Below are positions 17,614 to 41,864 of a stretch of 64,000 bases of DNA, piece by piece; within the stretch, counting starts at the first letter, position 1; the number at the start of each line of letters is the position of its first letter. Under the pieces are notes generated by a model that did no database searches, was not told where the DNA came from, and saw only the letters and a list, made by a program, of their open reading frames with translations. Origin of the DNA: Haliotis asinina (lineage: Eukaryota > Mollusca > Gastropoda > Lepetellida > Haliotidae). The stretch is from positions 17,796,001-17,860,000 of the forward strand of contig NC_090280.1 in the NCBI RefSeq assembly GCF_037392515.1. The letters run 5' to 3'. A program made the translations under genes and the position numbers.

Positions 17614-18150
17614 GTGAGTGAGTTAGTGAGTGAGTGCCATGTTGTGCCATGCCTGTTGCACCTATATTAGAATTACAGTTGTGAGTGCAAGGCAGCCAAT
17701 TAATGTATCGCTGGAAAACCACAGAAAAGACATGCCATGTCACAGTCCCACACAAGCTTGAACATATCTTGGAGAAATCGGGTAGTAATCAGTTTTTGAT
17801 GTATATTTGTGAGTGAGTGAGATCATGAACATAATTTTATACCATTTCCAAGAAATTGAAGATGTCGAAACATGAACAGATACCATGAACAGAAGAGATT
17901 TCAAGCCGACGACTAAAGGTCTCTGACACAGATGTAAGTCCATATCACCATATTATCCAGACAAGCGCAGACAATCTACTTGTCAACATAATAGGCTTAC
18001 TTGTTCATTCTGAAAATGCCAGAAGACATATTCTGTATGTTGTGTATACACATTGCCGGTTTTTATCCCCCATGGCTGTGCTTTCTTTTATTTACAGATT
18101 TTTGGCATTTATATAATTTTTTGTTGTTTTTTTTCCATGGAATGTTTTGG

Positions 18151-18735
18151 TACGGCGGCGTATTAGGGCCACGGTGAAAAACTTAATATCTCCTACGTAG
18201 GACTTAGTATCACCTACGTAGGAGATAGTAAGTCCTACGTAGGATATAATAAGTCCTACGTAGGATATAATAAGTCCTACGTAGGAGATAGTAAGTCCTA
18301 CGTAGGAGATAGTAAGTCCTACGTAGGATATAATAAGTCCTACGTAGGAGATAGTAGGTCCTACGTAGGATATAATAAGTCCTACGTAGGATATAATAAG
18401 TCCTACGTAGGGGATAGTAAGTCCTACGTAGGATATAATAAGTCCTACGTAGGGGATAGTAAGTCCTACGTAGGAGATAGTAAGTCCTACGTAGGATATA
18501 ATAAGTCCTACGTAGGAGATAGTAAGTCCTACGTAGGAGATAGTAAGTCCTACGTAGGAGATAGTGACACCAACGTAGGAGATAGTAAGTCCTACGTAGG
18601 AGATAGTAAGTCCTACGTAGGCGATAGTTAGTCCTACGTAGGAGATAGTAAGTCGTACGTAGGAGATAGTAAGTCCTGCGTAGGAGATAGTGACACCAAA
18701 AATATTTTTCACCGTGGCCCTAATACGCTTCCGTA
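18151..18735. mobile_element. TIR element (MITE-like) filled with a palindromic 21-bp array
   Basis: 31-bp terminal inverted repeats (18151-18181 and 18705-18735) match at 29 of 31 positions. Both begin TACGG and contain GCGTATTAGGGCCACGGTG. The flanking direct repeat TTTTGG (18145-18150 and 18736-18741) fits a 6-bp target duplication. Comparison with an uninterrupted unit of the host repeat near 39.17 kb shows the insertion point. The interior is almost wholly the 21-bp array, with no transposase. I do not recognise the superfamily. Confidence 0.75.
18185..18698. repeat. Palindromic 21-bp minisatellite, 24 units
   Basis: Each unit has the core TCCTACGTAGGA, a perfect 12-bp palindrome, followed by a 9-bp spacer, mainly GATAGTAAG or TATAATAAG. 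I count 24 cores, a few with single changes. Each unit carries one CpG at the palindrome centre. The minus strand is open across the array as a 7-residue repeat (TISYVGL) because 21 is divisible by three. Confidence 0.9.
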
Positions 18736-19756
18736 TTTTGGTCATAGTCTAATAGTGGGGTGGGCTTCGTTTCCGGAGCATAACTCAAAAACCGTTCAAT
18801 ATTTTCCTGCAAAACGTGGTAGCTATATCAATCACAACACAAAGTAGTGCCTTTTTGCTATTTACGGCTTTTCATGATTTATTATTTTCTCGGCTTCCAT
18901 GGAAACGTTTCGGACTTAGTCCCTAGTGAGAGGTGTGTTTCGTTTCCGGAGCACAACTCGAAAACATCTTAATATCTTTCAGCAAACGTGGACAGATATT
19001 TGAGGCAGACCTCAAAGTGGTGCATTTTGCTATTAAAAATTCGTTTGAATAAAGTAATTGCTTCCAAAGTAAATGTGTTTCGTTTCCGGAGCACAACTCG
19101 AAAACATCTTAATATCTTTCAGCAAACGTGGACAGATATTTGAGGCAGACCTCAAAGTGGTGCCTTTTGCTATTTTCAGATATTTGTCATTTTTGTTTTT
19201 CTTGGTTTCAACGGAAACGATTCGTAGGTAGTCTCAAATGGGGGTGATGGACTACGTTTCCACAACTGGAACACTTCTTAATATCTTTATGGAAAACTAG
19301 GCAGATATGTGAGCCAGACCCTAAAGTGGTGCCTTTTGCTATTTACAAATTTGTGGCATTTCTGTTTTCCCATTTTCCATGTAAACAGTTTTGACTTAGC
19401 CTCGAAAGGGAGGGCTGGACTTCTTTTCTACAGCACAACTCGAAAAGCATTTGATATCTTTCAACAGATCTTGGCAAATATATGAGACAGATCTTGAAGT
19501 GGTGCCTTTTGCTGTATACAGATATATGGCATTTATGTTTTTCACGATTTCAACAGAAACGATTCAAACTTAATCTAAAAAACATCAAGTTACTGTCAGA
19601 TGATTTATCCTTTCAGATATGTGGAGGCAAGGGATATATGTTTCTTATGACTCTTGTTTGTTTTGTTGTTTTTTTTTGTATTTGTGTCCGGTTGTTTGTT
19701 TTTTTCTTGACGTTCTTATTTCCGTGAGATACATGATATATATCAGTTATTGACAA

Positions 19757-27264: not shown

Positions 27265-30200
27265 GTATGTATTTGTCCCTGCTTGTGTAGTTTTTACTCA
27301 AGGAACATAACGTGATTCCAACGTTGTCACAATAGTTGTGTGTTATGTCCCACTTGCTATCACAGAGACAAAATTAAATTCCACGTTTCTGCACTATATA
27401 TCTAGATCAAGTATGGGACATTAAATAGTCTGTGATAGTTTTCTACTTTTGAAATTATGAGACTATTCACTATGTAATATTAAAGCAGCTTCTGGAGCTG
27501 ACTGTTAGCCCGGTTGTTGTTTTAGTTCAATCCAGTCAATTTAGTTCACGGTCACGTTTTAGCGCCACCATTGGATTTACTTGTTTGAGGGCTTCCAAAT
27601 TCGCCTACAGCACGCCACCAAGGATGTTTATCCTCCGTTTAATGTTGTATCCTACTTTTGCATGTCAGAGTTGTTTCTGCGTCAGTGTTTTATATCTAAA
27701 TGGTTGATAACTATTTTGTAAAAGGTACCAGGGGTCCAAAATAGTAATTAACGTTGTGTGTATGGTAACTCCGTAACTTCATGTACTTTTGTTAACAAAC
27801 ATGCTGCTAGAGCTATTTGTGTGCATGTTTATGAGGTACACATGTGGGCTAGAGTGCAGTTTACCGGGCGCGCGACCCGGGACTGCTCAGCGCTCGCTAA
27901 TGAGCCCGCTATAGCGCGCTGTAGAGCTACTGAACTGTCTCACTTTACCGCGCTGATGTGTCCTTAGGGTTAGGGACCCCCCTTCTAGATCCTTAGGGTT
28001 AGGGACCCCCTTCTAGATCCTTAGGGTTAGGGAACCCCCCCCCCCCCCCTCTAGATCCTTAGGGTTAGGGACCCCCTCTTCTAGATCCTTAGGGTTAGGG
28101 ACCCCCTCTTCTAGATCCTTAGGGTTAGGGAGTAAAGGTTAGGGTTGGCTTACCTTAGATGCGATTATATCCATATATCCATCCACGAATCGAATATATC
28201 ATATCATTGGCTGCACAACACCTTGAAAACAATGCCTAGGTGTGGCTTCTCGCTTTGATGAATGGGTAGGCGTGGCCTAGCTCTGCGCATGCGCAGTAAA
28301 TGAAAACAAACCATAATAGTTTGTTTTCATTCACTGCGCATGCGCAGAGCTAGTGGGGTAATGACCCGTTAAACGAGCACCAACTAACTGTGATCGCACC
28401 GGTGGTCCTGAGGTAGCGTGTCCGCTAATTAGTCAGTTGATATCCCACGACCCCTGCTGAGAGCGTTCGAGCACCGCCAGCTCAGCGAAAAAAATCTGAG
28501 AAAGCGCGCCCGGTAAAGTGCACTACTCCCCACATGTGTAGTAGAAAATATATATCATAATATAATGCATGATATGATATTATAGAAATGTAGTAATGAT
28601 GATACAGTAATACCATGTATTATTATTATTATTATTATTATTACAATACCAAGACACCGTAATGTTGAAAAAAAACCCCATGAGGTAGCAGAACGAACTC
28701 TTTCATAGTACCCCTGATGACAATTATCCCTTCAGCGTAATTATTGCAGTTGGAGAGGGAAGCCCACATCTGCATTAATTCTTTGGCATTTAGTAAGCTC
28801 TGCAAATAATGGCATATAATAAGCTAAACTGATACTGATGTTATGTTCAGGCTACCAGCTTTAAAATTGAATGTTTGTGTTTTTGTGCTGGCTCTTATTG
28901 CAAACCCTAGACACGCTAGGAGACCAAGACATAGTCAGTTTGGTGTGTTTTATAAATAACGTATAAAAGACAGTTTCCTAGTGTGTGCGCCCTCCAGTGC
29001 ACGCTTCCCCAAACCTGTGAAGCCTAAACTGATTGTGTTTTTGGTTTGGTTTTGGAGGGCAAATGAAGAGGAAGTTTGTGTTTTTCTGACAGATGAGTAA
29101 CAAATTGCCAACTGAAATATTGATTGGCTTAGAATCTGATGTTTACTAAAGCCTAGATAGCTATGAAACCATTCTTTTAGCAAGATAGATGTAGTCAGTG
29201 GCAAGAAGCATTTCCTGTCTGGCCAATGAACCTTCTCCTCTAGTGGGGTTACCAGAGCAGAAATTTCTCACAGAATAAACCCAGGGTTGTCGACTGTTTG
29301 CAAACAGTGATTCAGACAGGTCAAAATCATGGCAGTGTGATGCTCTCCTCAAGAAATTGCAGATATTCTGGAAATGTGTTACGTTGTTCAATGTGCTTAC
29401 TTAAGTTTCTGATGTTTTTACAAAACGTTTTACGCAGTTTTAATATTTTATGAAAAACTTTCTTTTGCAGGATTTTCTCCTCGAGGAGACCGGGGTGGTT
29501 TCCGTGGACGGGGAGGGTTCAGAGGGGGACGCGGTGGTGACAGGGGAGGACGTGGTGGGTTTGGAGACAGAGGAGGACGTGGTGGACGAGGTGGTTTCCG
29601 AGGGGGACGAGGAGATTCACGTGGCTTCCGTGGCGGCGGTGGTAGAGGAGGTGGCGGTAAGAAATTAATTGTTGGAACTGACATGCAGATATATTTCTTG
29701 GGTGATATTTGTTCGTTTAATGATCAGTTACAGCACTGGTCCTCAACAACCAATGCTGGTAAGAGGTAACTAAAATGGATCATGTGGTCTGACTTACTAA
29801 CTTGGTTTATGCATATCATTGTATACCAATAGCATGCATTGAAGAAGATGATGTAATTACTAGACTGCCTCATCCAAACTCGATAATTCACAGGCTGTTA
29901 TCATACATGTAGCTGTAACATTGCTGAGTGTGGCATTAATCAACAAACAAGTGAAACAAAACTGGCATTTCTGGCAGAGGGGAGGTCTCAGGTGGACGAT
30001 ACTAGTCACATTGAATCTGTCCCGTATGTTTGACTAATAGTTTGTCAAAATGGGTTGATGTCGTCAACGTCTTACTATGCTCTGTTGCGGGAGGACAGCA
30101 GGTGCATGTTCTGGTTTTGAGTTTATGCTTCATGCTGAACTTCCCATGAAGATAAAGGTTTCTTTGGGCTTGTTGTAAATGAGGGATTGGATTGCAAAGT

Positions 30201-36200: not shown

Positions 36201-39200
36201 TCGTCCAGCGCACCACCTTCTCAACCTTCACAACCTTTGATGTATTAACCAGTCTTTTAGAGCAGCAAATGGGTTCAGTCCAAACGCTCATTTCGGACGC
36301 GATGTCTTTTCTCCGTTAGATCGGCATCTGTCCAGAAGGGGGTGTGGCTCCTAATATGGCGTCCCATGGGGTCCCCAGCCAAACCTCTGGTATTGGTGTG
36401 GGGACACCCTTAGTGGGTGAGCTGGTGCTGTTGGCAACATCGGTAGCCGGTCACTTGGGGACGACCTCTGTCAGTGTTCCTAGGGAAGCGGTGCCGGCTA
36501 TTCGTCACACGGACTCGGTCTCGGTCGGGTCAATGGTGTCGAGCCTCTCTCGCTCTCCGATGTTCCCTCGACCGATCCTCCGGAGCTGTCTCTCGAGTCA
36601 GAGACGTCGTTGCTGGAGGACTGTGTCGAGGAGATCATGGAGGAGGGGGGTCGGGAGGGGCCAGGCATAGCTTCTTTTTCGCTCGGCGCCTCACTGGCAG
36701 GTTCGAGAGCGTATAGCTACTGTCCTGCCTCAGGTAGTCGCTGCCACGGCGACCGGCTTCCGGACAAGACGTTCACTCCGACGAAGGTGGCGGATACCCA
36801 GCTCCGCATCATCCCGTCAATTCTAGTCAATGCTATCAACCCTCTCCTGTTGGGATCCTGATCTCGCTTCGATTTAACGGAGCTTGATTGGAGATACCTG
36901 ATGGGAGATCTCGGCATTTATAACCCCCCTGTGGTGGACGACTGCATTTATGCGTCAGTCGCCCTGGGGGGTTCATCTGGTAGCTCTCTAGCCTCGGTGA
37001 GGCAGGGTCGGAGGCTACCACCCTTTACATCTAATGCGACTGCCCTCAAATCCGCCTATAGGTCATTTGAGGAGCAGTACCGCAACGCTGCGCAATGCCT
37101 CAAGGTCACTCCATGCTGCGTACACTTCAGTGTTACAGCGCAACCTGGCGGACAGTGAGGGGGGTGAGGGGGAGCCTCTCCACATTTAATTATTCTAAAC
37201 CCTTGTTGGAGCCGCCGCACTCTCCTCGTGCGCGGCCCTCGACCCTTGCCTTGGTGTATCCTTCGGTTCCAGACCGGTGAAGGTCCCGGGGTAGAATAGG
37301 CCTTCAGCAACCCATGCTTGCCATAAAAGGTGACTCAGCTTGTCGTAAGAGGCGACTAATGGGATCGGGTGGTCAGGCTCGCTGACTTGGTTGACGCATG
37401 TCATCGGTTCCCAATTGCGCAGATCGATGCTCATGTTGTTGATCACTGGATTGTCTGGTCCAGACTCGATTATTTACAGACCGCCGCCATATAGCTGTAA
37501 TATTGCTGAGTGGGGCGTAAAACTAAACTCACTCACTCACCATTCGGTTCCAGCCAAGGACACTACCAAATGGGCGCAGCCTTTACAAGTGCGCAAGGGC
37601 AAGGGAAAGGGTAAAGATAAGGGCAAGGCTGCCGGGCCCCAGCAGCCTTTTCAGAGGAAGGGGAAGTCGGCACCGGCTTCCCAGTAGTTTCTCCTCTGGT
37701 GCCCTTATTGACCCCGAATCAAGCAGTTGGAGTTCTGCTGACGTCGGGGGATTCACTCCCTTTTACCACATATCCCTGTGGGTGGCCGCCTTTCTCTCTT
37801 CCTACCGGAATGGGAAAAGGTCACATCCAATCCCTGGGTCCTATCCACACTCAGGGACGGCCACTTACCACAGTGGAAGCGAGACCAACCTCTCTTTTCC
37901 GGAATCCGTTGCACGCCAGTGCCGGCTGTTCCGGAGTAAGTCAATGTGCTCTGCGCCGAGGTCCATTTGTTACTGGTCAAGGCGGCCATCGAGGTGGTTC
38001 CTAGGGGACAGGAACAGGAGGGATTTTATTCCACTTATTTCCTAGTCCCCAAAAAGGACGGAGGGTTCAGACTGAACAAAATGTTGCGGGTCCCTTCATT
38101 CAAGATGGAGACACTACGGTCGGTGATCTCATCTGTAGAAAGAGGCTTACGTTCATCGATCTCAAGGATGCGTTAGCTATATTCGAGACTATCTCCCGGT
38201 TGTTCGGGTCGTTCCAGGTGGATCTGTTTGCCTCTGGGGGGACGAACCAGATTCCGGATACCGGATGCGAGAGCCATCGCCCAGGACTTTTCCCAGCTCG
38301 ATTGGACAGACAGGGTATTGTGGGCGGTCCAACCGCTTCTGGCACTGCTTCCTGTCCTGTTACCCTTTCGACCGGACTTGCAATCCCAGAATGGAGCGCC
38401 GCACCCGAATCCCAGGATTCAATTGGTGGCTTGGCCATTGTCAGGGATCGCCTCCAGGTGAGCGGAATTCCTGCACCAGTTGCAGACATAATTCTGGCTT
38501 CGCGGAGGGATCCGACAAACGTTCAATACAAGGATAGATGGGCCTGTTATGCGCGCTGGTGTGTTGACAGTGGGATTCAACACATTCAACATATAGCATA
38601 AAACAGTCTGACGAGTTCAGCATGAAAAGTGAGGTGCGAGGTGCACAGCGGGACTTCCCTGCTCTTGGCTGTTAAGGGGCTCAGGTAGGGGCCCTGTAGG
38701 GGTGGTCTCACAAGACAAAAACGAGTTTTTGTTTTGTGAAATATTTATTCAATATTGTTACAACTGTCGTAGGCATTTTAAAATGGACATTTTCATGCTA
38801 TGTATGTACCCCAAGGAGGACATTCTTCAAAGAATTCATAACCTCTACAGGTTTGTATAAATTTATTATCGCCCTTGACTTGTTTTATCCAATCAGGTGT
38901 GTACGCTGGGAAGTTGAGCATACCAATCCTAACTCACTTTTGCTTCTTAAATTATGCGATTAAACTTGGCAGCACAAATTATAAGAGGTACTCTGAAAGA
39001 GCTAGAAGGACATGTAATGTGGGCGGATATAGTCAACGCCTCGTCCGTCCCCCGTCCGTAATCATTTTGTTTCAGGAGCATAACTCAGAAACCGTTCAAT
39101 ATTTTTAGACCAAACTTGGTTGTGCCTTTTGCTATTTACAGATTTTTGGCATTTATAGTTCTGTTTTTCCATGGAACATTTTGGTGTTAGTCTTATGTTT

Positions 39201-41864
39201 GCGTTGGCTTCGTTTCCGGAGCAGAACTCAAAAAGCATTCAATATTTTTCTGCAAAACAGGTTTTTGTGATTTATTATTTTCTTGGTTTTCATGGAAATG
39301 TTTCGGACCCATTCTGAAAAGTGAGAGGTGTGTTTCGTTTCCAGAGCAGAACTCAAAAACTTCTTAATATCTGTCTGTAAAACTTGGCAGATATGTGTGG
39401 CAGACCCCAAAGTGGTGCCTTTTGCTATTTACATGTTTTTGTGATTTATTATTTTCTTGGTTTCCATGGAAACGTTTCAGACTTAGTCTCCAAATGGAGG
39501 GATGGGCTTCATTTCCAGAGCAGAACTCAAAAACCATTCAATGGTTTTCTGCAAAACTTGGTATCAGAAACTATAGTGGTGCCTTTTGCTATGTACAGGA
39601 TCTTGTGATTTATTATTTTCTCGGTTTCCATGGTTTACAAACGTTTTGGACCTAGTCTGAAAAGTGAGAGGTGTGTTTCATTTCCAGATCAGAACTCAAA
39701 AACTTCTCAATATCTGTTAGTAAAACTTTCTAGATATGTGTGGCAGACCCCAAAGTGGTGCCTTTTAAATTTTAAAGGTTTTTGTGATGTATTATTTTCT
39801 TGGTTTCCATGGAAACGTTTAGGACTTAGTCTCAAAATGGAGGGGTGGACTTCGTTCCCGGAGCACACCTCAAAAACCTTTTCATATCATTCAGCAGATC
39901 TTGGCAGATATATGAGACAGCTCTTGGAATTATGACTTTGCTGGTTACAGATATATGGCATTTATAATTTTCATGAATTCCATGGAAACAATTCAAACTT
40001 AGTCTAAAAAAAAAACAATGAGTAACTGTCAGATGATTTGTCCTTTCAAACGTGTAGGGGCCGGGGGGATATGTCATCTTCTGATGACTCTTGTTTGTAA
40101 AAGTTTCGGACCTGTCAGTTTGTCTACATGATTTCCCCCAAACAAGAGTCACACTGCAAACAAATTTTCGCAGCTGTAACCACTGTCTTTGTTGACTGTG
40201 ACAAGCTTGGTTTTAACAGCTGTTTAGCGGATTGGCTACTGTCAGAATGCAGAGCCAGCAAAGGAAGGTAATAAAATTATGGGGCTGAGCCGTTGATGCA
40301 TCCAGGGCATAGTCGAGATTTATCGGATATTGAGGATGCAGGCCCTGATGGCCAACTGGCAAATTAAAGTATAGCAAACACTGCTGCTTGTGATAAAGAT
40401 GGGAAAGGTATCATCTGTTAAAGCCTAGCATGGCTAAGTATAAGCTGCTAGCACTATGAAGGGGATCTGTTTGAGAGAATCATCTGTAATTAGGTGCTCA
40501 TCATATCAGCCACTAGTTTGCTTGCATTATGAAAAAAGATCATGTACGCTAAAAATATTTTAAATTGTAATCTTGTTACTGGGGCTGAAATCGTACTCTT
40601 ACCACGGTACGGGATACAAACTGAAGACAAAATACAGTGATATACCCTTTCACCCTGCTTGTTACGTTTCCATGACAACAGGCTATTACTCACTCAGTCC
40701 CATGCACTTCCTGTTCCAGGCAAACTGCATTGACTCGACAGCCGAACCTGAGGCTGTGTTTGCAGGGGAAGTAAACAAACTGAAGACAGAAAAGATCAAG
40801 CCCCAGGAACAGCTGACGTTGGAACCATACGAGCGTGACCACGCTGTGGTCGTTGGCTGTTACAGGTCAGTGATACTTGTCAGCAAGGAGGCATTGGGGT
40901 GGTCAAGTGGGTAAAGCTTTGTCATGCAGAAGACAGGTTTTGACTCCCCACATGGATACATGGTCTGGTGTCACCCATCGTGATGTTGCTGGATTATTGC
41001 TATAAGTGGTTTAAAACCTCACTTGATCCATGAAGATCTGGGGTGGAATACCTCTTCAGCAACCCTTGTTTGCAACAAAAGGTGACTTACTATGCTTGTA
41101 AGAGGTGACTAGAGGGATCGGGTGGTCTGGCTCGCTCACTTGGTTGACACATATCATCGGTTCCCAGTTGTGCAGATCGATGCTTGTGCTGTTGATCATT
41201 GGATTGTCTGGTTCAGACTCAATTATTTACAGACCGCAGCCATATAGCTGGAATATTACTCACTCACTTAAAGCCTCATTCACTCAGCATAGCAGGGCTT
41301 ACCTCTTTGACTTTGAGTCAAAGTCAACAAATTGCACTCGCAGCTTAAAATCAAATAATTGTAAATGACTCAAACGAACACCAAAGTGAACAGGAAAAAC
41401 ACACCAACTCTGCAGAATTTCATTATGATTTTGATCAACAAAATATAAAAGTTGTTTAAAAAACCATTATTTTCATTCAATACTGCAAGACTTGTGACAT
41501 GGGTGTAGCAACAGCTAAAGTAACAGCCAGGGAAGTGAAAGACACATGCGATGTTGATTTCATCGGTAGGGGATGGTATCAAGAGTCATCACACTGTGTT
41601 TCTCAATCGGACATGGAAAGTTCTGAGAGTTGATGTCGTTCTCCTAGTTTCTTAGCATTAGTTTGAGTCATTTACAATTATTTGTTTTTGAGTTAGAGTG
41701 CAATTCATTTGGGAGATTTTGACTCAAATGGACTTAACTGGTAACTTTGATTTCTCAAAAGATTTTTGTCTAGCTTGTGTGGGACTGTCACATGACAGTT
41801 GTCTTTCGTTTTATATGTTAGTTACCAGCTGTTGTTTGTTTGTTCCAGAGCGCCAAAGAAGTAA
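27252..41864 (+). CDS. FBL: Fibrillarin, rRNA 2'-O-methyltransferase (10 coding exons, complete)
   Basis: The exons (27252-27264, 29471-29656, 30610-30624, 31049-31108, 31850-31944, 33089-33259, 33539-33671, 35106-35218, 40720-40865, 41849-41864) all have GT-AG borders and join in frame to 315 aa; human fibrillarin is 321. Residues 5-82 form the Gly/Arg-rich domain. The methyltransferase domain follows, with the SAM-binding motif [20 protein letters not shown] (160-179), [13 protein letters not shown] and [19 protein letters not shown] (230-248), nearly identical to the animal proteins. Fibrillarin is the nucleolar catalytic subunit of box C/D snoRNPs, methylating rRNA with NOP56, NOP58 and SNU13. 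Intron phases are 1,1,1,1,0,0,1,0,2. Unusual points are the tiny exons 1 and 3, Cys in place of Val in the usual GVYR motif, and a short C-terminus (RAPKK). Intron 8 is 5.5 kb and full of repeats. A likely poly(A) signal is at 42381. Confidence 0.97.
27697..27805. repeat. Copy of a LINE segment from 23908-24016
   Basis: About 109 bp are nearly identical (around three to five differences) to 23908-24016 inside the LINE relic 3.8 kb away, in the same orientation. The copy ends ~30 bp before the TIR element. Confidence 0.8.
27965..28138 (+). repeat. Interstitial telomere-like minisatellite, six copies
   Basis: The unit is CCTTAGGGTTAGGGA followed by a C run and a TTCTAGAT linker, ~28-32 bp. Each unit has two TTAGGG hexamers. 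One unit has a C run of about 16. A trailing AGGTTAGGGTT follows. Confidence 0.9.
28277..28353. repeat. 35-bp-arm hairpin carrying two NRF1-like sites
   Basis: The arms 28277-28311 and 28319-28353 match at 34 of 35 positions around a 7-nt loop. Each arm has TGCGCATGCGCA, itself a palindrome and the consensus NRF1 binding site of animals. The hairpin is the centre of the TIR element in fibrillarin intron 1. Confidence 0.9.
29471..29656 (+). CDS. FBL: Fibrillarin coding exon 2 (GAR domain)
   Basis: Acceptor TCTTTTGCAG, donor GTAAGA, 186 nt, phase 1-1. Encodes [20 protein letters not shown] and further RGG repeats, the arginine-methylated region of fibrillarins. Confidence 0.95.
29735..29945 (+). 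mobile_element. SINE family A, degenerate (fibrillarin intron 2)
   Basis: Recognisable by CAACCAATGCTGGTAAGAGG, CGATAATTCACAGGCTG and the GTAACATTGCTGAGTGTGGC tail. Confidence 0.5.
30185..30310 (+). mobile_element. SINE family A fragment (fibrillarin intron 2)
   Basis: Matches the middle of family A (TTGACAAGTGTCATCATATC, TTGATGCTCATGCTGTTGAT). Confidence 0.55.
30610..30624 (+). CDS. FBL: Fibrillarin coding exon 3 (15-nt microexon)
   Basis: Acceptor CTCTTTGCAG and donor GTACGA enclose GTCGAGGAGGGAGAG, adding GRGGR in phase 1-1. Skipping it would keep the frame and remove five residues of the Gly/Arg domain. Confidence 0.75.
30932..30990 (+). repeat. 29-bp direct duplication (fibrillarin intron 3)
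   Basis: The word starting ATTCATTAATTCAGTAAGGA occurs twice in tandem with one change. Confidence 0.8.
31049..31108 (+). CDS. FBL: Fibrillarin coding exon 4
   Basis: Acceptor TTCTACAG, donor GTCAGT, 60 nt, phase 1-1. Encodes the end of the Gly/Arg domain and the [11 protein letters not shown] linker. Confidence 0.95.
31185..31345 (+). mobile_element. SINE family B copy (fibrillarin intron 4)
   Basis: Head GAGGTGGGGTATACGAGTGG, box-B region GTTAAGATTCCCCACATGG, decayed tail ending AAACTCACTGAC. Confidence 0.65.
31850..31944 (+). CDS. FBL: Fibrillarin coding exon 5
   Basis: Acceptor GTATTTAG, donor GTATGT, 95 nt. Encodes [20 protein letters not shown] and EKKISVE, the start of the methyltransferase half. 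Confidence 0.97.
32034..32294 (+). mobile_element. SINE family A, near full length (fibrillarin intron 5)
   Basis: Runs from CCGTGAAGATTCGGGGTAGA to the tail AAACTAAACTCACTCACTC. Confidence 0.85.
32774..32903 (+). repeat. 26-bp minisatellite, five copies (fibrillarin intron 5)
   Basis: Five head-to-tail copies of a unit starting GCACATCATGATTTTGGCAC, essentially identical, so recently expanded. Confidence 0.95.
33089..33259 (+). CDS. FBL: Fibrillarin coding exon 6 (SAM-binding motif)
   Basis: Acceptor TATGACAG, donor GTGAGT, 171 nt, phase 0-0. Encodes [20 protein letters not shown] and the SAM site [20 protein letters not shown]. Confidence 0.98.
33539..33671 (+). CDS. FBL: Fibrillarin coding exon 7
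   Basis: Acceptor TGTTTCAG, donor GTAAGT, 133 nt. Encodes [20 protein letters not shown] and [15 protein letters not shown]. Confidence 0.98.
33705..33968 (-). mobile_element. SINE family A, full length (fibrillarin intron 7)
   Basis: A complete reverse copy from GTGAGTGAGTTTAGTTTTAC to CCGGGACCTTCACAGG, starting ~33 bp after the exon 7 donor. Confidence 0.9.
34366..34512 (+). mobile_element. SINE family B copy (fibrillarin intron 7)
   Basis: Head GGTGGGGTAGCCGACTGGTT, box-B-like CTGGTTCAACTCTCC, tail CCATGATATTGCTGGAATAT. Confidence 0.8.
35106..35218 (+). CDS. FBL: Fibrillarin coding exon 8
   Basis: Acceptor CTCTTTTAG, donor GTGAGA, 113 nt. Encodes [20 protein letters not shown] and [10 protein letters not shown]. 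Confidence 0.98.
35296..35440 (+). mobile_element. SINE family B, decayed (fibrillarin intron 8)
   Basis: Head GGGGCAGTGGAGTATCCTAG, box-B region ATGTTTGATTCCCC, tail near CTAAACTCACTG. Confidence 0.6.
35445..36079. other. Fibrillarin intron 8 sequence, no feature recognised
   Basis: No exon, RNA gene or repeat border was seen. Confidence 0.35.
36080..38827 (+). mobile_element. DIRS-like retroelement fossil with inverted terminal repeats
   Basis: Inverted ends of ~112 bp (36080-36196 and 38712-38827) face each other, as in DIRS elements. Between them, left to right on the + strand, are a gag-like region, reverse transcriptase remains, RNase H-side remains and the N-terminal part of a tyrosine-recombinase-like region. 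It is GC-rich relative to its surroundings. The element is broken in several places and shortened, and carries a younger SINE (37273-37542). It lies sense in fibrillarin intron 8. Moderately old. Confidence 0.75.
37273..37542 (+). mobile_element. SINE family A, full length, nested in the DIRS-like element
   Basis: An 11-bp direct repeat TTCGGTTCCAG flanks it (37262-37272 and 37543-37553). The 5' end reads ACCGGTGAAGGTCCCGGGGT and the tail ends ACTCACTCACTCACCA. The intact duplication defines both ends of the family and marks a recent insertion. Confidence 0.95.
38985..40110 (+). repeat. Dispersed repeat of ~171-bp tandem units, locus 2 (fibrillarin intron 8)
   Basis: Same anchors as locus 1 at 18-19.7 kb (GGAGCATAACTCAGAAACCG, GTGCCTTTTGCTATTTACA), about five to six units, ending in the same tail (CTGTCAGATGATTTGTCC, TGATGACTCTTGTTTG). 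The left end has CCTCGTCCGTCCCCCGTCCG. Confidence 0.8.
40720..40865 (+). CDS. FBL: Fibrillarin coding exon 9
   Basis: Acceptor CTGTTCCAG, donor GTCAGT, 146 nt. Encodes [20 protein letters not shown] and [15 protein letters not shown]. Most animal proteins have GVY where this has GCY. Confidence 0.97.
40885..41022 (+). mobile_element. SINE family B copy (fibrillarin intron 9)
   Basis: Head GCATTGGGGTGGTCAAGTGG, box-B region TTTTGACTCCCCACATGG, tail GATGTTGCTGGATTATTGC. It starts 20 bp after the exon 9 donor. Confidence 0.75.
41026..41272 (+). mobile_element. SINE family A (fibrillarin intron 9)
   Basis: Runs from TGAAGATCTGGGGTGGAATA to CTGGAATATTACTCACTCAC, placed directly after a family B copy in the same orientation. 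Confidence 0.85.
41849..41864 (+). CDS. FBL: Fibrillarin terminal coding exon 10
   Basis: The acceptor TTTGTTCCAG is followed by 16 nt that complete an Arg codon and add APKK and TAA. Vertebrate fibrillarins end RPPPKVKN, so the tail is shorter here. Confidence 0.85.

Follow-up and report, generated by a model that had tools for sequence, protein, structure and literature searches.

A non-autonomous, foldback-like transposon family with IS3EU-type ends, its palindromic 21-bp arrays and their probable continuation as satellite DNA

Tandem-repeat MITEs of the clam Donax, reported by Satovic and Plohl in 2013, are said to be mollusc MITEs with internal tandem repeats, and the element described here, compared with them by title only, is of that general kind. 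We know of no palindromic unit in the Donax elements, nor do we know of palindromic structure in the TIR-220 repeat of Tetris, a foldback transposon of Drosophila virilis. According to the parts of the published account considered here, the TIR-220 arm repeats of Tetris seeded a satellite, its target-site duplication (TSD) is 8-10 bp and a Mutator affiliation was suggested (PMC4079207); a foldback or MITE seeding a satellite is therefore a kind of event already known. Like Tetris as presented there, the family described here has no conserved ORF, inverted arms with tandem repeats, kb-long satellite arrays and no autonomous copy that could be found, whereas Tetris differs in its TIR-220 repeat, its 8-10 bp TSD and its only three structurally complete copies. 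In Galileo, of the P superfamily, tandem repeats within the terminal inverted repeats (TIRs) are described in the same source as containing additional transposase binding sites, the transposase being of the THAP-domain type and so of another superfamily (PMC4079207). The present family likewise has tandem repeats near its ends, for which a binding-site role is putative.

With regard to the ends, the comparison is with IS3EU/GingerRoot. In the passages of the literature used here, IS3EU elements have TA..TA ends and a TSD that is usually 6 bp (PMC10045372), fungal IS3EU elements have termini TAYGG..CCRTA and TIRs of more than 30 bp (PMC12730594), and Repbase holds 45 IS3EU families of which 17 are autonomous, non-autonomous families being known (PMC10045372, PMC12730594). 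Our family resembles them in each of these end and TSD traits and differs in that no rve-type transposase was found in the copies analysed; its subterminal palindrome arrays receive no mention in the same passages. Two oyster satellite DNAs, CgiSat35 and CgiSat47, are labelled DNA/IS3EU in a table of another partly consulted source, and they are thus, like the arrays here, mollusc satellite DNA with IS3EU similarity, although their monomers are 690 and 129 bp and ours is 21 bp (PMC8268682). What is new here is the spacer polarity that marks the copies as foldbacks, a hypervariable spacer base, large arrays bordering the interior of a long form, and insertions into the family's own ends.

The element lies in a stretch of 64,000 nucleotides, which we call the window (Table 1). 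A first-pass annotation had proposed 31-bp inverted ends, and these proved exact in their coordinates, 29 of the 31 bp being inverted-identical, with the termini TACGG..CCGTA; the suspected 6-bp duplication TTTTGG is indeed present on both sides. Its 24-unit array holds when up to two mismatches are allowed (24 palindromes, against 23 at up to one), and its statement that every unit is a 12-bp palindrome is exact only for 17 of the 24. In shuffled sequence 0.04 palindromes at up to one mismatch would be expected against the 23 found, and 0.00 TIR cores against two. A tandem-repeat call on the array gave a period of 21, 23.9 copies and the limits 18191-18691. The first palindrome starts 50 bp from the right terminus and 40 bp from the left, and because the family mode is 50 bp the left end of the window element looks shortened.

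Table 1. Features of the window element and of its paralogous empty site (window coordinates)
Feature	Position	Strand	Remarks
Whole element	18151..18735	.	585 bp; non-autonomous, foldback-like, IS3EU-type ends
Left target-site duplication TTTTGG	18145..18150	.	Single copy at paralogous empty site
Right target-site duplication TTTTGG	18736..18741	.	
Left terminal inverted repeat	18151..18181	+	TACGGCGGCGTATTAGGGCCACGGTGAAAAA
Right terminal inverted repeat	18705..18735	-	Reverse complement TACGGAAGCGTATTAGGGCCACGGTGAAAAA
Array	18191..18685	.	24 palindromes, consensus TCCTACGTAGGA, every 21 bp
Single left-arm-oriented spacer	18203..18211	-	CTTAGTATC
22 right-arm-oriented spacers	18224..18673	+	GATANTAAG type
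Paralogous empty site	39117..39258	+	One TTTTGG at 39179-39184; aligned to joined flanks

The window element inserted as a unit and duplicated 6 bp of its target. The annotation had named empty sites as a check on the duplication, and when the two flanks, fused through a single TTTTGG, were aligned with the remaining window sequence, a paralogue with a single TTTTGG was recovered with 121 of 152 columns identical, the 10 gap columns lying upstream of the junction and none at it. More diverged copies of the flanking repeat align across the junction too, some with small gaps nearby. The annotation had also allowed that the ends might be part of a longer unique inverted repeat, and this fails because the ends belong to a dispersed family. 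Among 38 two-ended copies delimited by script (the 69-bp copy L079 falls below the length limit of the script and is excluded), 17 have flanks that agree over 6 bp, and none has flanks that agree over 3-5 or 7-10 bp. A further 11 carry a 6-bp duplication with one mismatch, giving 28 of 38, while flanks permuted 1000 times gave a mean of 1.37 and a maximum of 6; two of the 38 copies, both in L065, are near neighbours with shared flanks and are perhaps not independent. A Mutator-type TSD of 8-10 bp, as in Tetris, was not found in the 38 copies, which show 6 bp only. Among the ten remaining copies, inspection by eye gave an exact TSD in L042, L064, L069 and L073 after stepping over extra terminal octamers, and in the outer copy of L095 after stepping over a nested copy. 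L038 is counted among the 28, yet its flank is really terminal repeat and its outer flank also differs by one base, and five of the 38 (L027, L061, L067, L081 and L087) have no convincing TSD. The 17 exact TSDs, a small sample, favour G at position 1 (8 of 17), C at position 6 (9 of 17) and an A/T-rich middle.

If the structure were not mobile at all, it would be an inverted repeat made by chance or by the assembly around a minisatellite. One copy, L067, lies at the centre of perfectly inverted flanks and could be an assembly fold-back, but the empty site, the TSD statistics and the hundreds of dispersed ends refute such an origin for the family, and we give it practically no credence. In L067 itself (C5:5616219-5617000) the flanks at 1-50 and 707-756 match as reverse complements at 50 of 50 bp, as far as the sequence was fetched, and the locus is either an inverted duplication with the foldback at its centre or a fold-back of the assembly.

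The window's own genome (1.14 Gb) was searched with the 21-bp TIR core TATTAGGGCCACGGTGAAAAA at up to two mismatches, which gave 266 + 295 = 561 places and none on either strand for the reversed control; the 31-mer with two free bases gave 42 + 37 exact matches genome-wide and again 0/0 for the control. The loci analysed (L009-L038 and L056-L095) represent 82 of the 100 matches listed among the 561, one of them (C10:7689442) cut by one base, and since all 100 have no core mismatch they sample the best-preserved ends. Among the 103 distinct ends of these loci, 102 have a palindrome within 70 bp inward, which starts 50 bp from the terminus in 72 of the 102; a palindrome lies outward of only four ends, all in L038 and L095, where copies are nested or adjoining. 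The 38 two-ended copies are 112-4449 bp long and carry 1-122 palindromes. The single end without a unit belongs to L079 (L079:1083-1151, - strand), the smallest family member seen, which has both TIRs, no palindrome and an exact TSD, CTTAAC, while the 133-bp copy L086 has two palindromes and also an exact TSD. The annotation had looked to other genomes for numerous copies that share these ends, differ in unit number and carry 6-bp duplications; such copies are present in the window's own genome, and the short, non-coding copies with TIRs and TSDs, in high number, are MITEs. No match to the TIR core was found in viral contigs. Neither the TIR nor the 21-bp unit was found as a printed repeat in the open-access literature, Repbase, Dfam and most subscription papers lying outside that search; the 12-mer palindrome string occurs in three open-access papers which, by title, are on unrelated subjects.

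The ends and TSD suggest a non-autonomous DNA transposon with IS3EU-type ends, and it is on these two features that the superfamily assignment is made because no transposase was found in the analysed stretches. The window termini are matched by TA..TA in 32 of the 38 two-ended copies, by TAYGG..CCRTA in 26 and by exact TACGG with CCGTA in 25; the TSD is 6 bp, both by count and at the empty site, and the inverted repeat of the window element (29 of 31 bp) is accompanied by about 50 bp up to the first unit at most family ends. No transposase ORF was seen by eye in the TIR loci, most of which extend inward by no more than about 1.2 kb; searched with a profile built from four rve proteins, the same loci, with the same reach, gave a best E of 0.24 (L075). 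As a route to an autonomous partner, a genome search for the IS481 family returned mostly long ORFs read as Gypsy integrases. Two pairs of rve-core genes that read as non-Gypsy were also rejected: the DNA fetched around the L054/L099 genes contains no TIR core or unit, and neither does that of L097/L098, of which the right end was not reached and the left boundary differs from the family TIR.

L054:3235-5180 and L099 contain an IS481/rve-like integrase core and are about 95% identical over 4.3 kb, and L054 also has an OTU-like domain (Pfam); the region is possibly an uncharacterised transposon or a domesticated gene. The rve-core region of L097 and L098, taken with the flanks L100-L103, is 95-96% identical between C1 and C13 over about 7.7 kb, measured from its left boundary as far as the sequence was fetched on the right.

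Alternatively, the ends could derive from another superfamily in which TA..TA ends and 6-bp TSDs occur by coincidence. Among the stretches analysed none links a transposase to the family ends, and the genome holds many copies of a 326-aa integrase which, rejected as a partner, was read as Polinton-type from the neighbouring ORF; Polinton ends, however, begin differently, with AG. Although Polintons also make 6-bp TSDs according to the section of the review used here (PMC10045372), TACGG..CCGTA fits the termini published for fungal IS3EU, as quoted above (PMC12730594), and 6 bp stands out as the only TSD length among those tested from 3 to 10. We regard a different superfamily as improbable, and retain IS3EU-type ends as the preferred assignment.

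The array has a regular architecture. The spacing from unit to unit is exactly 21 bp, or two turns of B-DNA, in 824 of 1009 neighbouring pairs, followed by 28 (46), 42 (23) and 27 (19). The spacer GATANTAAG is directional, reversed in the left arm and forward in the right with a single switch between them, and this rule fits 540 of the 564 spacers in 33 two-ended copies and is broken by 24; the opposite order still fits 456, a consequence of the many copies that have almost all their spacers in one arm. The switch falls after the first spacer in the window copy (1:22), in the interior of L014 (10:5) and towards the other end in L067 (19:3). Since spacer orientation is mirrored in this way, the copies are foldbacks with long inverted arms of tandem repeats, often lopsided, with the switch anywhere from near one end to near the other. 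As a single strand the window copy folds at -182.9 kcal/mol against -64.6 when shuffled, a strong fold which follows from the repeats and proves nothing about function.

Whether the unit does anything for the transposon is the point on which the sequence comparison is most evenly divided, and we place a putative transposase binding site and a neutral passenger at about even odds. In the family consensus TCCTACGTAGGAGATANTAAG, position 17 holds 0.18 bit and position 12 0.86, all others holding 1.45-1.89; palindrome positions were selected at up to two mismatches, and the spacer, to which no filter was applied, is about equally conserved. Position 17 also differs from the consensus in 108 of 185 private unit types, other positions in 9-50, and while the filter for private types exempted position 17, the analysis with the unfiltered spacer gives the same pattern. 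One free base among conserved ones is unlike uniform neutral decay, and a protein site with an uncontacted centre would fit it. Within the palindrome, changes on both sides were no commoner than expected in 824 units, and with no such compensatory change selection on the dyad as such is unproven.

As a neutral passenger of the same transposon, the array would expand by itself because palindromes slip and fold at replication, a reading we hold only slightly less probable than its being wrong. It would account for a unit number that varies from 1 to 122, for a switch point that moves, and for the higher-order periodicity of the array L008 (see below), which is ordinary satellite behaviour. L079 with no unit and L086 with two both have exact TSDs; movement thus does not require a long array, unless units disappeared after insertion. 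The unit-free L079 in particular counts against a required role of the array; in this copy the unit was either not needed for insertion or lost afterwards. Against neutrality are the placement of the unit, which follows closely inward of the terminus at 102 of 103 ends and in 72 of them at one distance, and the concentration of variation at one base, position 17, of the private types. A more elaborate version of the binding-site reading, in which the transposase would read a helically phased row of dyads (every 21 bp, on the same face), array length would tune mobility and the family termini would be targeted as well, in the manner of the bacterial IS30 and IS911, seems to us doubtful; were it true, satellite formation would be driven by selection on a binding platform.

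A link from the transposon to larger arrays comes from a long form of the element. There are 41 ends with no partner within 1.5 kb, 15 of which fall in one cluster by common interior. The two-ended copies L039, L042, L043 and L044 and the one-ended L041 and L045 share an interior in which no gene was recognised; L043 measures 1786 bp, with the same ends and units as the short copies. Extra sequence in L039 and L044 was considered as a family transposase and rejected, being a nested Penelope-like reverse transcriptase in L039 (by ORF reading) and in L044 a hAT-like insertion, CAGGG..CCCT, nested there and flanked on either side by GTTCACAC (by eye). Units multiply at one end of the long form, from 9 in L043 to 54 in L042.

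Arrays of the 21-bp unit about 2-6 kb long are present on C4, C8, C11, C14 and C16, and on C4 three kb-long arrays are found at 4.11, 4.55 and 4.99 Mb, about 0.44 Mb apart. Both edges were fetched for the arrays at C4:4.55 Mb, C4:4.99 Mb and C11:57.86 Mb. The left edge is long-form interior in all three (82-85% identity to L043), the right edge in none, and no TIR at up to five mismatches was found in the six edge stretches. The array L008 (C14:43.38 Mb) contains 127 units at up to one mismatch, with unit identity of 0.88-0.90 at even lags and 0.84-0.86 at odd lags. These kb-long arrays outside the element, with higher-order repeats, are satellite DNA, and since long-form interior adjoins three of the three large arrays tested, descent of the satellite from the transposon is probable, the direction being our reading of the borders. 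The idea in the first-pass annotation that the element carries its own satellite is supported by up to 122 units in one two-ended copy and by these three borders. It is conceivable that the order was the reverse, a pre-existing 21-bp satellite having been invaded or captured by a TIR element so that the association is secondary, and large arrays do exist without TIRs at the edges examined. However, 102 of 103 ends have units on their inner side, usually at a single distance, and an outer unit is confined to nested loci; spacer orientation mirrors the ends, and each of the three large arrays tested borders long-form interior on one side; capture is therefore very unlikely.

The family is dispersed, its units start at a preferred subterminal distance, its arms have foldback polarity, unit number varies and kb-long arrays are linked to the long form. 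To explain these observations together we propose, with a probability of roughly 0.7, a transposon with IS3EU-type ends that is moved in trans, whose unit is a putative binding site and whose arrays give rise to the satellite. Mobilisation would be by an IS3EU-type transposase, and the palindrome would be a subterminal binding site, most likely for that transposase, helpful and not strictly required. In such an array a dyad site would recur at each second turn of the helix, and one base in the interval between sites would be free to vary. Units may multiply within an arm by slippage, unequal exchange or hairpin-templated repair, short array-only copies would be internal-deletion derivatives of the long form, and arrays at one end of the long form may lose the outer TIR and continue as satellite arrays. 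The origin of satellites from transposons is usually inferred from few intermediates, and here one genome seems to hold the whole series, from the long form through foldbacks with 0-122 units to TIR-less kb-long arrays on long-form interior. With a unit that is short, palindromic and conserved except for one or two bases, the idea of a binding site as the seed of a satellite becomes directly testable.

The family also appears to have inserted into itself. At 8 of 109 ends, TIR and flank are separated by at least one additional terminal octamer TACGGNNG (at up to one mismatch), or in L038 by a decamer, against a chance expectation of about 0.5 octamers; the eight include both ends of one element (L003/L042), and the loci are L003/L042, L038, L064, L069, L073, L075 and L095. 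Extra copies in L069 and in L038 are different alleles, which slippage would not readily give, and the four in L003/L042 are alike. In L095, inspected by eye, a 704-bp copy has a 172-bp copy nested in its left TIR, at a depth of two bases; the inner TSD is CGTAAG/CGGAAG, and the outer TSD GTATAT stands on both sides. In the light of this arrangement, the best reading of the extra octamers is as traces of earlier copies that entered the family's own TIR two bases from its end; if recombination then trimmed such a copy, an extra octamer would remain. In the portion of the literature considered here, the bacterial IS30 and IS911 target their own inverted repeats and form IR-IR junctions by a route that appears unlike ordinary insertion (PMC9333248). 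What these cases have in common is a target that is, or adjoins, an inverted repeat of the element itself; unlike the junctions described there, the nested copy in L095 resembles the product of ordinary insertion, its TSD falling within the TIR. IS911 belongs to the IS3 family and can be considered at most a distant relative of the present family.

At another locus, L093 (C10:7679462-7689461), three TIR starts in the same orientation lie about 3.15-3.19 kb apart with a common interior, probably a tandem triplication. In the window itself, positions 39257-39879 hold a diverged tandem repeat of about 174 bp, related copies of which flank the element at about 18740-19550, and positions 27977-28131 a tandem repeat with TTAGGG motifs.
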